From: Cloacibacterium normanense
Lineage (GTDB): Bacteria > Bacteroidota > Bacteroidia > Flavobacteriales > Weeksellaceae
NCBI RefSeq assembly: GCF_002943105.1
Contig: NZ_PTPZ01000001.1
Location: 310,001 to 374,000, forward strand
DNA length: 64,000 bases
Reading direction: 5' to 3'
Positions 34,667 to 40,557 of the stretch are shown here, piece after piece (the first letter of the stretch is position 1; every line of letters begins with the position of its first letter). The position numbers and the translations under genes are program-made. The notes beneath the pieces are model-generated. The model worked only from the letters and a program-made list of their open reading frames with translations, ran no database searches and was not told the DNA's origin.

Positions 34667-35086
34667 TTACTTTTTAAAACGTTCCCATTTTATCATCATA
34701 AACTTATCTCCGAATTCGGTAATGATGAGCCCAGAACCTTTGAGATTTTCTTCATTTCTGATGTATTCTGCCAGTTCTATTTGTTTGAAAACCTTATAAG
34801 TAGCATGGAAATCAGAATGTGGAGGTTTTTTTATATTGTATTCCTTAATCCAGGAACTGATGGTGACATGAGAAATACCCAGAATACGCTCTATTTCTCG
34901 TAAACTGAGGCCTTCTAAATAGAGTTGTAAAGCTTTCGTTACATAGTAATCATCTATCTTTTTGCCAATTTTATTGACGGTGAAATAGTAATTGCAGTCT
35001 CTACAAAAATAGCGCTGTTTTCCTTTAACAATGCCACTTTTTACGATTTCGGAGTTTTCGCATTTCGGGCAACAATTTATTTTCAT
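34667..35086 (-). CDS. IS1/InsA-type zinc-ribbon and HTH protein (probable regulator)
   Basis: The start at 35086 (MKINCCPKC) gives 139 residues. Residues 4-34 form a zinc ribbon (CPKC and CRDC pairs), as in the InsA half of IS1. A helix-turn-helix with GLSLREIERILGISHVTISS follows, and then a C-terminal segment ending FMMIKWERFKK with no DDE catalytic residues. No terminal inverted repeats or target duplications were seen. It therefore looks like a domesticated DNA-binding protein, not a live insertion sequence. It lies just upstream of the porin gene on the same strand and could regulate the acid-uptake cluster. A -7 box is at 35101-35108. Confidence 0.8.
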   Translation of the reverse strand: MKINCCPKCENSEIVKSGIVKGKQRYFCRDCNYYFTVNKIGKKIDDYYVTKALQLYLEGLSLREIERILGISHVTISSWIKEYNIKKPPHSDFHATYKVFKQIELAEYIRNEENLKGSGLIITEFGDKFMMIKWERFKK

Positions 35087-35100
35087 ATATACATTTTTAG

Positions 35101-35108
35101 CAAAGATA
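35101..35108 (-). promoter_or_regulatory. -7 box (TATCTTTG) of the zinc-ribbon/HTH gene
   Basis: A minus-strand TAnnTTTG match 14 bp before the start at 35086. It supports that start over 35122. Confidence 0.5.
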
Positions 35109-35157
35109 TACTTATTTTGCAATAATAATGTTAAATAAAATTAATTTTTTCTAAAAA

Positions 35158-35189
35158 TTTTGAAGGCAAAAAGTTAATATGTATATTTG
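35158..35189 (+). promoter_or_regulatory. Promoter of the pyrB-carA-carB operon
   Basis: TTTTG (35158-35162) and the -7 box TATATTTG (35182-35189) are 19 bp apart, a full Bacteroidota promoter. Transcription should start near 35193-35196, where the leader peptide begins. Confidence 0.75.
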
Positions 35190-35195
35190 CAACCA

Positions 35196-35270
35196 ATGAA
35201 AACGATAAATTTTTTATTGAACATAAATATCGGACTTCAATCCGACGGACAAAATATTTTTATTTATTGA
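35196..35270 (+). CDS. pyr operon leader peptide (24 residues)
   Basis: An ATG 6 bp after the -7 box opens a 24-codon frame (MKTINFLLNINIG..., ending FIY) that stops at TGA 35268-35270. This is one base before the terminator stem. The frame covers a pause-type hairpin (TCGGA-CTTCAA-TCCGA, 35230-35245) and a U-rich stretch (35255-35268). A ribosome at the stop codon would cover the left arm of the terminator. This matches the logic of the E. coli pyrBI leader, in which ribosome-polymerase coupling reads the UTP level. The transcript would be leaderless. Confidence 0.65.
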   Translation: MKTINFLLNINIGLQSDGQNIFIY

Positions 35271-35271
35271 A

Positions 35272-35302
35272 AACGAAGCTGTTGGGGCTTCGTTTTTTTT
35301 GC
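35272..35302 (+). terminator. Attenuator hairpin before pyrB
   Basis: AACGAAGC (35272-35279) pairs perfectly with GCTTCGTT (35287-35294) around a 7-nt loop, and a T run follows. It lies between the promoter and pyrB, with no gene end before it other than the leader peptide. It can therefore only regulate the operon. Confidence 0.85.
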
Positions 35303-35319
35303 TTAAAAACCAGAAAATC

Positions 35320-36210
35320 ATGATTAAATTATCCAGATTGTCACTTGAAAGCGTTGAAAAATTATTAAATCAAGCGCTAGAATTCGCAAACGGCAAAACA
35401 GTAAAGGCCAAATCAGACATTTTTGTAGCGAATCTTTTCTTTGAAGACAGCACCAGAACGAAAATAAGTTTTGAGGTGGCTGAGAAAAAATTAGGATTGC
35501 ACGTAGTGCATTTTGATGAGTCAAAAAGTTCTATCAATAAAGGCGAAAGTCTTTTAGATACGATTAAAACGCTGGAATCAATTGGGATAAACCTTTCCGT
35601 AATCAGACACCAAAAAACCAGATTTTATGATGAATTGAAAGGTGTGAAAATGGGTGTGGTAAATGCAGGAGACGGAATTGGACATCACCCAAGTCAAGCG
35701 TTACTAGATTTAATAACCATCAAACAAGAATTTGGTGATTTTAAAGATTTGAAAGTGGGAATCGTAGGAGATATCAAACACAGTAGAGTAGCCAATTCTG
35801 ATGCAGATACACTGAGAAGATTAGGTGCGAAAGTATATTTTTCTGGACCAAGAGAATGGTTTGACGAAGGAAGTATAATGAATGGAACCTACAGAGATTT
35901 AGATGCAATGATTACTGATGTAGATGTGCTCATTTTATTAAGAATTCAGCACGAAAGACATGATGAAAAAATGAAATTGACGCCTCAAGATTATCTCAAA
36001 AAATATGGTCTTACCAAAGAGCGTGAGCAAAAAATGAAACCAAATGCCATCATCATGCATCCCGCTCCAATCAATAGAGGGGTAGAAATAGACAATGATT
36101 TGGTAGAATGTGAACGTTCTAGAATCTTTAAACAAATGCAAAATGGAGTATTTGCAAGAATGGCCATCTTGAAAAAAGTGTTAGAAGAAAGAGGTTTTGA
36201 ATTTGAATAA
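35320..36210 (+). CDS. pyrB: Aspartate carbamoyltransferase catalytic subunit
   Basis: PyrB makes carbamoyl-aspartate from carbamoyl phosphate and aspartate, the committed step of pyrimidine synthesis. The 296-residue protein has the carbamoyl-phosphate motif FEDSTRTKISFE and the HHPSQALLD block. The HPAPINRGVEI motif sits near the end. The ATG at 35320 is used; the TTG at 35299 lies in the terminator T tract. No pyrI regulatory subunit and no PyrR gene accompany it, which fits control by the upstream attenuator. carA and carB follow. Confidence 0.95.
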   Translation: MIKLSRLSLESVEKLLNQALEFANGKTVKAKSDIFVANLFFEDSTRTKISFEVAEKKLGLHVVHFDESKSSINKGESLLDTIKTLESIGINLSVIRHQKTRFYDELKGVKMGVVNAGDGIGHHPSQALLDLITIKQEFGDFKDLKVGIVGDIKHSRVANSDADTLRRLGAKVYFSGPREWFDEGSIMNGTYRDLDAMITDVDVLILLRIQHERHDEKMKLTPQDYLKKYGLTKEREQKMKPNAIIMHPAPINRGVEIDNDLVECERSRIFKQMQNGVFARMAILKKVLEERGFEFE

Positions 36211-36271: not shown

Positions 36272-37351
36272 ATGAAAAAGAAATTAATTTTAGAATCAGG
36301 TGAAGTTTTTCACGGACAAGGTTTTGGTGCAAATACCGATACTGAAGGAGAAGTGGTGTTCAATACTGGAATGACTGGTTATCAAGAACTCATTTCAGAC
36401 CCTTCATATTGCGGTCAGATTGTAACCATGACTTATCCATTAATTGGTAATTACGGAATTAATAGAGATGATTTCGAAAGTATTGAGCCCGCAATTAAAG
36501 GCTTAATCGTGAGGGAATTATGTGATTTTCCTTCTAATTTCAGAAGTCAATTGTCTCTAGATGAATTTTTTGCCAAAAAAAAGCTATCAGGAATTTCAGG
36601 GATTGATACCAGAAAACTGACTAGAATTATCAGAAATCACGGGGTTTTAAAAGGAAAAATTGTAGATGAAAATGCAAATGAAACAGCAGTAATTGCTGAA
36701 CTGAAAACTAAAAATTTCCCAACCAATCAAGTAGAGCAAGTTTCTACCAAAACGCCTTATGCAAGTCCGGGAAGAGGTTTCAAAGTGGTTTTAGTGGACT
36801 TTGGTTCTAAATTAGGCATCATCAGAGAACTTTCGCAGAGAGATTGCGACATCATCGTGGTATCTCAAGATACAACTGCAGATGAGATTCTGTTAATGAA
36901 TCCAGATGGAGTAATGCTTTCTAACGGTCCTGGTGATCCACAAGATGTAAAAGGTGCTTCAGAATTAATTAATGGTTTACTTGGGAAAGTTCCAATCTTC
37001 GGAATTTGTTTAGGTCACCAGTTAATTGGTTTGGCTTGTGGAGCAAAAACCTATAAATTAAAATTCGGTCACAGAGGTGGAAATCACCCAGTTCTAGATT
37101 TAAAAACAGGAAAAGTAGCGATTACTTCTCAGAATCACGGTTATGCAATAGACGAAGAATCTCTAGAAAGCACCGATTTAGAAGTAACACACATCGCTCT
37201 GAATGATAAAACAAACGAAGGAGTTCGTCATAAAAAATATCCATGTTTTTCAGTACAATATCACCCAGAAGCAAGTCCAGGTCCAGAAGATGCGAATTAT
37301 CTTTTTGATGAATTTGTAGAAATGATGGAAGAGTTTAAAATTAAGAACTAA
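36272..37351 (+). CDS. carA: Carbamoyl-phosphate synthase small subunit
   Basis: CarA is the glutaminase subunit that feeds ammonia to CarB. The 359-residue protein has the N-terminal CPSase domain ([14 protein letters not shown]) and a class I amidotransferase domain with the nucleophile in FGICLGHQL. The His-Glu pair is in YHPEASPGP. It lies 61 bp after pyrB and 26 bp before carB in the same operon. Confidence 0.96.
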
Positions 37352-37377: not shown

Positions 37378-40300
37378 ATGAAAAGAACAGATATTAAAAC
37401 CATTTTAGTAATAGGAAGCGGTCCAATTATCATCGGGCAAGCTGCAGAATTTGACTATGCAGGAACTCAGGCTTGCCTTGCATTAAAAGAAGAAGGGTAC
37501 AGAGTAATCCTCATCAATTCTAATCCTGCAACCATCATGACCGATGTAGAAATTGCAGACAAAGTGTATATAGAGCCTATTTCTCTTCCATTTGTAAGTC
37601 ATATCATCAGAAAAGAACGTCCAGATGCGCTTTTGCCAACTTTGGGTGGACAAACTGGATTGAACATGGCGGTAGAATTACAGAATTCTGGAATTTTAGA
37701 AGAATGTGGAGTAGAAGTTCTTGGGACTAAACTTTCTGCCATCAATAGAGCAGAAGACAGAGATTTGTTCCGTGAATTAATGAGAGAATTAAACGAGCCG
37801 GTTCCAGATTCTGATATTGTAAATACAGTAGAAGGCGCATTAGCTTTTGCAGAAAAAATTGGTTATCCATTAATTGTTCGTCCTGCTTTTACCATGGGTG
37901 GAACAGGTGGTGGAATCGCTCATGATGAATACCAACTGACAGAAATTGCAGAACTTGGACTGAAATATTCTCCAGTGACTCAATGTTTAATTGAAAAATC
38001 AATTGCTGGGTTTAAAGAAATAGAATACGAAGTAATGCGCGACAAAAACGATAACGCTATCGTGGTTTGTAATATGGAAAACATAGATCCAGTAGGTGTT
38101 CATACTGGAGATTCTATCGTAGTTGCGCCTTCGCAAACGCTTTCTGACAGAGAATATCAGATGCTCAGAAATGCTTCACTTAAAATTATTAGAGCTCTCG
38201 GAATAGAAGGAGGCTGTAACGTACAGTTGGCTTTAGACCCTCATTCTTTCAACTATTATATTATCGAAGTAAATCCTAGAGTTTCTAGAAGTTCGGCTTT
38301 AGCAAGTAAAGCAACAGGTTATCCTATTGCGAAATTAGCTGCTAAAATTGCAGTGGGACTTACTTTAGACGAAATGCTTAATCCAGTTACAGGAAAAACT
38401 TATGCTTGTTTCGAGCCTGCTCTGGATTATGTGGTAACTAAAATTCCTAGATTCCCATTTGATAAATTCGAAACGGCTGACAGAAGACTTTCTACCCAAA
38501 TGAAAGCAACGGGTGAAGTAATGGCGATTGGTAGAAGTTTTGAAGAATCATTAATGAAAGCTATTCGTTCTTTAGAAACGGGATTGCAACATTTAGGATT
38601 AAAAACCAAACCTGCACTTGCCTTAACAGACGAAGATATCGAACGCAGAATTAGAGTGTGTGATGACGAAAGATTATTCATCATAGGCGAAGCTTTAAGA
38701 AGAGGTTATGATTGGGAAACCATCGTAGAATGGAGTAAAATAGATAAATTCTTCGTTTGGAAATTCAAAAAACTGATTGATTTTGAAAAAACCATTGCGG
38801 AAAATAAATTCAACAAAGAAATATTACTGGAAGCGAAAAGATTAGGCTTCTCAGACATTAATATCGCACATCTTTGGGAAACAGACCACAGAGAAATCTT
38901 CAAGTTCAGAAAAGAAAACGGAGTGATGCCAGTTTATAAAATGGTAGATACTTGTGCTGCAGAATTTGAATCTGAAACCCCTTATTTCTACGGAACGTAT
39001 GAAGAAGAAAACGAGAGCATCCCTTCGGTTAAAGAAAAAATCATCGTTTTAGGTTCTGGTCCTATCAGAATTGGTCAAGGGGTAGAATTTGATTACGCTA
39101 CTGTTCATTCAGTTTGGGCAATCAAACAAATGGGTTACGAAGCGATTATCATCAATAACAATCCAGAAACCGTTTCTACAGATTTCTCGATTTCGGATAA
39201 GCTATATTTCGAGCCTCTAACAGAGGAAGATGTAATGAACATCATAGAACTCGAAAAACCAAAAGGAGTGATTGTACAATTTGGTGGACAAACCGCGATC
39301 AACCTTGCAGATAAATTAGCAGCTCATGGTGTAGAAATTCTGGGGACTTCTCTAGAAGATTTAGACAGAGCCGAAAACAGAGATAAATTCGAACATGCAC
39401 TTCAAGAATTAGGCATTCCACAACCATTGGGTAAAACGTGTTTCTCTAAAGAAGAAGCAATTAAAATTGCCAATGAAATCGGATTCCCAGTATTGGTGAG
39501 ACCAAGTTACGTTCTGGGAGGAAGAGCGATGGAAATAGTATACAACGATGCAGAATTAGACCATTACATGGAACATGCGGTAGATGCAAGTCCAGAACAC
39601 CCTGTTTTAGTAGACCGTTACCTCACCGGAAAAGAAGTAGAAGTAGACGCGATTTGCGATGGCGAAACCACCGTAATTCCAGGAATTATGGAACATATCG
39701 AAAGAGCGGGAGTTCACTCAGGAGATTCTATTGCAGTATATCCTCCACAAACGCTTACTCCAGACCAGATTGCAACATTGGAAGATTATACCAAACGTTT
39801 AGCAAAAGGTTTGAAAGTAGTAGGTTTAATGAATATTCAGTATGTAATTTCTGATGGAAATGTCTATGTGATTGAGGTAAATCCTCGTTCATCAAGAACC
39901 GTTCCTTTCTTGTCAAAAATCACAGAAGTTCCGATGGCGAATTTGGCGACCAAAGCAATTCTCGGAGCAAATCTGAAAGATTTAGGCTATCAAGATGGAT
40001 TGGTTCCAAATAAAGAAGGAATTTTTGTAAAAGTACCAGTCTTCTCATTCAGTAAATTAACAAGAGTAGATGTAACACTGGGGCCAGAAATGAAATCTAC
40101 AGGAGAAGTAATGGGCAAAGATTCTACGCTAGAAAAAGCCTTGTACAAAGGTTTAATCGGTGCAGGTAGAAAAGTGCCTTTACACGGTTCTATCTTATTC
40201 ACCATAGATGATGTAAATAAACCAGAAGCCGCAAAATTAGCAAAAAGATTCTACGATATCGGTTTCAAAATTTGGGCAACCAGAGGAACTTCTAGATATT

Positions 40301-40557
40301 TTAACGAACTTAATATTCCAACCAAAATTGGATATAAAATAGAAGAAGAAACAGAGAACTTAATCAGTTTAATCCAAAAAGGAAAAGTACAATATGTAGT
40401 GAATACCACTACGAAAGGAAAACAATCGATGAATGACGGGTTCTTAATCCGTAGAACTTCGGTAGAAAATGGCGTTCCTTGTCTTACCAGTATGGATACT
40501 GTAGAAGCAATGCTCAAAGTTATCGAAAGCATGACTTTCAAAATGGAAAAAATGTAA
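37378..40557 (+). CDS. carB: Carbamoyl-phosphate synthase large subunit
   Basis: CarB makes carbamoyl phosphate from bicarbonate, ammonia and two ATP, for both pyrimidine and arginine synthesis. The 1059 residues contain two homologous ATP-grasp halves. The first opens with [20 protein letters not shown] and the second with [22 protein letters not shown]-terminal MGS-like allosteric domain (about residues 930-1059) follows. Length and motifs are complete. A strong terminator follows. Confidence 0.97.

Follow-up and report, generated by a model that had tools for sequence, protein, structure and literature searches.

The pyrB-carA-carB operon in the stretch of Cloacibacterium normanense DNA analysed here (64,000 nucleotides; hereafter the window) is preceded by a compact leader whose sequence points, with a probability that we put at about 0.8, to a pyrBI-type, UTP-sensitive, translation-coupled attenuator. 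The parts of this leader are plainly legible in the DNA and are conserved throughout the family Weeksellaceae, and selection is evident on its reading frame, its stop position and its U content.

Downstream of the leader, on the forward strand, lie pyrB, encoding the aspartate carbamoyltransferase catalytic subunit (35320–36210; NF002032, 357.7 bits against a cut-off of 263), carA (36272–37351; NF009475, 493.2 bits) and carB (37378–40557; NF003671, 1619.3 bits). Of the 121 loci read across the family, 113 have carA as the next gene after pyrB; contig ends truncate two of the remaining eight. Divergent from the leader, on the reverse strand (34667–35122), is a gene for a 151-amino acid IS1-like zinc-binding protein (NF033558, 78.9 bits; cut-off 100). 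Because its relatives (55–100% identity over 130–153 residues) lie near pyrB at 29 of the 121 loci, it resembles a conserved cellular gene more than an active transposase.

Architecture of the pyrB leader

All parts of the leader lie on the forward strand. A candidate −33 element, TTTTG (35158–35162; consensus from PMC7366714), is followed by the Bacteroidota −7 promoter box TATATTTG (35182–35189; TAnnTTTG) and, after a six-nucleotide spacer (CAACCA), by an ATG (35196–35198) that opens an ORF of 24 codons plus TGA (35196–35270, with the stop at 35268–35270), encoding the peptide MKTINFLLNINIGLQSDGQNIFIY. Within this ORF are a small hairpin, TCGGA-CTTCAA-TCCGA (35230–35245), which is a candidate pause hairpin, and a U-rich tract, ATATTTTTATTTATT (35254–35268), which is a candidate UTP-sensitive pause region. 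One base past the leader stop begins an intrinsic terminator (35272–35300), consisting of an 8-bp stem with arms AACGAAGC and GCTTCGTT (35272–35294), a loop of 7 nt (or 5 nt with a T-G pair) and a T8 run (35293–35300); the pyrB ATG follows at 35320. This terminator is the sole forward-strand site that a terminator scan returned between 35000 and 35400. The initial annotation had described just such an arrangement (promoter, 24-codon ORF, hairpin, U-rich tract, stop-abutting terminator and T run), and on direct reading each of these elements is present. An Rfam search of the window gave a tRNA as its sole match at gathering score and left the leader uncovered, while a search with the leader itself gave six matches, every one below gathering score.

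The spacing between promoter and start codon is short throughout the family: the gap from TAnnTTTG to ATG is 5–7 nt in 78 unique leaders, under a search pattern that permitted 4–7 nt, and the TA and TTTG of the −7 box are invariant across a 33-sequence alignment whose members were chosen by that very pattern. In F. psychrophilum the mapped TAnnTTTG box spans −12 to −5 (PMC9723704), and the same rule would predict a 5′ UTR of about 1–3 nt for these leaders and of about 2 nt for that of the window. In that species 5.5% of 890 mapped mRNAs are leaderless, and translation initiation in Bacteroidota is described as proceeding largely without Shine-Dalgarno sequences (PMC9723704). A leaderless start had been put forward earlier as a new twist of this peptide; near-leaderless spacing is indeed kept across the 78 leaders, and a leaderless transcript is what it predicts, but the spacing is not peculiar to pyrB, as TAnnTTTG also lies 0–10 nt ahead of the first ATG in 29 of the 376 ORFs scanned over 464 kb.

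Distribution across the Weeksellaceae

Upstream DNA was oriented and read at 121 Weeksellaceae pyrB loci (30 + 28 + 63 named), which draw the same genomes from two collections and yield 78 unique leader sequences; left out were a locus whose contig ends inside pyrB (L063) and four that are not this gene (L002 and L032–L034). A strict layout, in which a terminator is required and the ORF reaches to no more than 6 nt from it, was found at 117 of the 121 loci and a looser pattern at 120, the strict misses being L052 and its duplicate L125, L056 and L062. As a control, both patterns were applied to 464 kb of this genome, with 358 ORFs of 100 codons or more. The strict layout precedes one of these, which is pyrB, and the loose pattern three. 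Outside the family, both patterns are absent from 17 Bacillaceae pyrB loci and from 27 pyrB loci of other Bacteroidota, the latter scan covering about 500 nt before the match, so any leader placed before an upstream pyrR would escape it; whole-genome searching with the covariance model R1 closes this gap for R1-like elements only. That the leader layout is more than a chance occurrence is confirmed.

R1, which was built on 33 leaders of the set, matches 253 of the 296 genomes of the family, representing 26 of its 33 genera; some of these matches are in-sample, and the E-values are rough. PyrB homologues were found in 262 of the 296 genomes, also in 26 of the 33 genera. Against 395 genomes of the phylum, R1 matched ten, namely nine family members and one spurious site (G332, E 0.006), the sole match outside the family, which was rejected on account of a terminator lying after the end of an ORF. 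Seven other matches within the Cloacibacterium genome (E 1.2–3.0) look like ordinary post-gene terminators and were likewise rejected as copies of the leader.

A weak R1 match (E 0.0067) is also present in G021, a genome in which no pyrB was found, and second or third matches occur in G012, G052 and G151, two of those in G012 adjoining pyrB. In G012 pyrB is present twice, with a separate leader before each copy (C11:102526–102641 and C42:1377–1492); this genome may be a strain mixture. Nine of 17 family genomes searched gave no pyrB match at E 1e-20 (G007, G009, G018, G021, G028, G029, G031, G040 and G047; G007 and G031 are incomplete genomes), and some pyrB-less members of the family may have lost pyrimidine synthesis.

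Selection on the leader and the proposed switch

The evidence that the leader ORF is maintained comes from 21 divergent leaders, chosen by identity below 72% and not as one per genus: frame 0 is open to 9 nt before the terminator stem in 20 of the 21, and the other two frames in 1 and 4, where shuffled sequences lead one to expect 3.5. Among the 78 unique leaders, the ATG lies 69–87 nt ahead of the stem, and the stop codon falls −1 to +6 nt from the stem in 67, into or through it in nine, and 9 and 16 nt early in two (L052 and L056); in 76 of the 78, the ORF thus ends no more than 6 nt short of the stem or extends further. Over the 464 kb of this genome that were scanned, the terminator of an ordinary gene begins a median of 24 nt past the stop, with a distance of 3 nt or less in 5 of 109. 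The terminator between promoter and pyrB has nine consensus pairs, of which five have changed on both sides.

Composition of the ORF shifts towards its end. In the last six codons of the 21 divergent leaders, codons ending in T outnumber those ending in C by 75 to 7, against 78 to 47 further upstream in the ORF (Fisher p 1.7e-6); the corresponding ratio in pyrB-carA-carB of the window is 318:180. Given this bias towards U at synonymous positions, it is the nucleotide, not the encoded residue, that is selected in the U-rich stretch before the terminator. The peptides themselves differ widely among genera, although stretches such as FPLDD are common to some.

As a conserved element, the small hairpin has modest support. 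Such hairpins vary in sequence among the leaders and lie a median of 10 nt (3–13) before the first U run, an offset partly set by the search, which was confined to stems ending 13–33 nt before the terminator. Their energies relative to shuffled sequences give a mean z of −1.1 over the 21 leaders, two being singly significant at p <0.05; a stem scan gives a combined p of 2.7e-4 over the divergent leaders, with 4 of 21 singly at p <0.05. The hairpin of the window is not individually significant (p 0.33 against shuffled energy), and an unconstrained stem scan of this leader favours a different stem (p 0.20). Hairpins located 10–13 nt upstream stabilise pauses (PMC12288461), and the similar offset seen here was counted in favour of a pausing role; for pyrL, compensatory mutants and NusA are reported to have given no sign that a hairpin contributes to pausing (PMC9291695). 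A NusG-type motif, TTNTTT, occurs in 14 of the 21 divergent and 55 of the 78 unique leaders, counted without a shuffle control; it resembles a plain U tract too closely to be claimed as a feature of the leader. The alignment across relatives called for in the initial annotation bears out its pyrBI-type reading through family-wide conservation of frame, terminator and U tract, and less firmly through the hairpin.

From these features we infer a start site, translation of the leader, polymerase pausing, UTP as the signal and occlusion of the terminator by the ribosome, which would combine as follows. Transcription would start at, or a few bases before, the AUG of the tiny leader ORF, and a ribosome would load once the 5′ end of the RNA emerges, while RNA polymerase would form the small hairpin and, about 10 nt further on, enter the U-rich tract. 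With ample UTP, polymerase would keep its lead over the ribosome and the terminator, at about +75, would fold, ending transcription before pyrB. With scarce UTP, polymerase would pause in the U tract, allowing the ribosome to catch up and reach the stop codon, which abuts the terminator stem and in some relatives lies past its start; there the ribosome would cover the 5′ arm, the terminator could not fold, and pyrB-carA-carB would be transcribed.

In E. coli, terminators in the first 100 bp are effective, since the ribosome still lags behind polymerase unless a pause allows it to close up, and relocating a stop codon so that it lay 5 bp ahead of a terminator lowered termination from about 90% to below 10%, an effect that needed translation (PMC4824070). 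The pyrL switch depends on polymerase pausing at low UTP, on a template that demands U (PMC10135430). Bacteroidota are absent from one list of phyla with runaway transcription (PMC13323073).

Most of the conserved features could also be accounted for without a UTP sensor, by a geometry in which a ribosome is placed to interfere with a terminator. A generic translation-gated attenuator would read translation of the leader (growth state, initiation capacity or the general NTP level), and its U tract would merely slow polymerase or keep the RNA unstructured. Yet the selection is for U and not for A/U (151 T against 43 A at positions −14 to −5), the genes downstream make UTP, and in this genome the element is found at pyrB only, both by R1 over the whole genome and by the strict scan over 464 kb; we regard such a gate as unlikely.

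We give still less credence to attenuation of the trp/his type, in which the leader peptide would sense an amino acid or charged tRNA, for instance through the terminal Ile, Tyr and Phe codons of the ORF. A short ORF does lie before the terminator, the C-terminal parts of the leader peptides repeatedly contain Ile, Tyr and Phe, and attenuators of this kind have been suggested for amino-acid operons of F. psychrophilum (PMC9723704). Against this, the peptides vary widely between genera and share limited stretches, the synonymous-site preference for U marks the nucleotide as selected, and pairing of the ORF region with the 5′ arm of the terminator, as an antiterminator would require, was not found (5.38 bases, 5.02 when shuffled). 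When the leader peptides were compared by eye, no conserved series of codons for a single amino acid was seen. The leader stop moreover abuts the stem, whereas amino-acid attenuators keep more than 20 bp between the two (PMC4824070). None of the rival explanations considered accounts for U bias, frame and stop position together, and the leader fits a pyrL-type scheme.

PyrR, the origin of pyrB and related systems

Pyrimidine genes of Bacillus are controlled by PyrR attenuation. With the PyrR model NF003549, none of 23 Weeksellaceae genomes scored over the cut-off, their weak matches reaching at most 34 bits, and 11 of 11 other Bacteroidota tested did so. In those 11 genomes pyrB lies downstream of pyrR, and their PyrB is 40–42% identical to that of the window. 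At 27 pyrB loci of the phylum, two of them from genomes already among the 11, pyrR is adjacent in 18 and not in nine, and no leader of this kind was seen upstream of the nine. PyrR is not universal in Bacteroidota, as the control Bacteroides ihuae gave no match, and lacking it does not set the Weeksellaceae apart. The Cloacibacterium genome has no match to PyrI anywhere and none to PyrR over the cut-off, in agreement with the earlier remark that neither gene lies near the leader.

These results also bear on the possibility that termination is governed by a bound protein or ligand (PyrR-like, or a riboswitch), the ORF being incidental, or that control is exerted by the divergent 151-amino acid zinc/HTH-like protein. 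Adjacency of pyrR to pyrB in many Bacteroidota and the gene for the 151-amino acid protein upstream of pyrB speak for it; PyrR falls below the cut-off in all 23 Weeksellaceae, no Rfam family matches at gathering score, the leader frame is conserved, and the 151-amino acid neighbour is present at only 29 of the 121 loci within the upstream DNA examined. We consider this explanation highly improbable. On the attenuator reading preferred here, the translated leader would stand in for work that PyrR does elsewhere in Bacteroidota.

The enzyme itself differs from that of other members of the phylum: PyrB of the window and family is 59–63% identical to Bacillaceae PyrB, against 34–46% to that of the other Bacteroidota listed. 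A ranking of PDB chains, the top-ranked of which we take to be the B. subtilis and S. aureus enzymes, also points to a Bacillota-like affinity. These identities suggest that Weeksellaceae pyrB came from a Bacillota-like source by horizontal transfer. One may then picture an independent invention of pyrL logic, whereby in an ancestor of the Weeksellaceae a Bacillota-type pyrB replaced the PyrR-linked one, and a family-wide UTP sensor took shape on a nearly leaderless mRNA, from a 5′-terminal ORF of about 70 nt, a programmed pause and a stop-touching terminator. We hold this history to have slightly better than an even chance, the patchy occurrence of PyrR in Bacteroidota, including its absence from Bacteroides ihuae, having lowered our estimate. 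PyrR-linked control acts on the same gene, and the Weeksellaceae PyrB is Bacillaceae-like, but the Weeksellaceae differ in having no PyrR over the cut-off and a translated leader.

The closest parallel is the pyrBI/pyrL system of E. coli K-12, which likewise has a short leader ORF before pyrB with no protein regulator, a U-demanding leader (PMC10135430) and a terminator that a ribosome could block on completing the ORF or passing through it. The pyrBI terminator lies inside the leader gene, and terminators of amino-acid attenuators lie more than 20 bp past theirs (PMC4824070). The two differ in several respects: pyrL has a Shine-Dalgarno-like GGAGG where the Weeksellaceae start is near-leaderless, it comprises 44 codons where most Weeksellaceae leaders have 19–26, and its stop lies beyond the T run where most of theirs abut the stem. 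The operon here is pyrB-carA-carB without pyrI, under a Bacteroidota promoter. Given the different phylum and layout, the two leaders are probably convergent. With trp/his attenuators the Weeksellaceae leader would share a decision on termination made by translation of a short peptide; it differs in having no antiterminator that we could find, no diagnostic codon run and a stop beside the terminator.

We found no description of leader attenuation of pyrimidine genes in Bacteroidota in the open-licence literature. The initial annotation knew of no description of such a device in the phylum, which stands for pyrimidine genes in the literature searched; leader-peptide attenuation has, however, been suggested for amino-acid operons of F. 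psychrophilum (PMC9723704), and sORFs reminiscent of leader peptides are mentioned in PMC7366714. The principle is thus known; the lineage, the compact near-leaderless form and the contrast with PyrR appear to be new. If the reading is right, a phylum remote from the enterobacteria also couples transcription to translation in order to sense UTP, and does so with a translated leader that stands where relatives keep a regulator protein. A near-leaderless start would make the timing of initiation part of the sensor, and independent invention would imply that Bacteroidota ribosomes trail RNA polymerase closely from the first codons. At a single locus, the pyrB leader would offer a natural reporter of ribosome-polymerase coupling in Bacteroidota, showing both if it occurs and how soon it sets in.

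One genus, g16, diverges from the rest of the family. None of its nine genomes with pyrB is among the R1 matches, and no terminator of the kind described next was found at one of its loci (L179). At the other eight (L062, L175–L178 and L180–L182), one frame without an ATG is open for 153–186 nt up to and through a different terminator, and in six of these eight an in-frame TTG-AAT is a possible start. This long layout is closer to that of E. coli pyrL (the E. coli sequence being read at L231).
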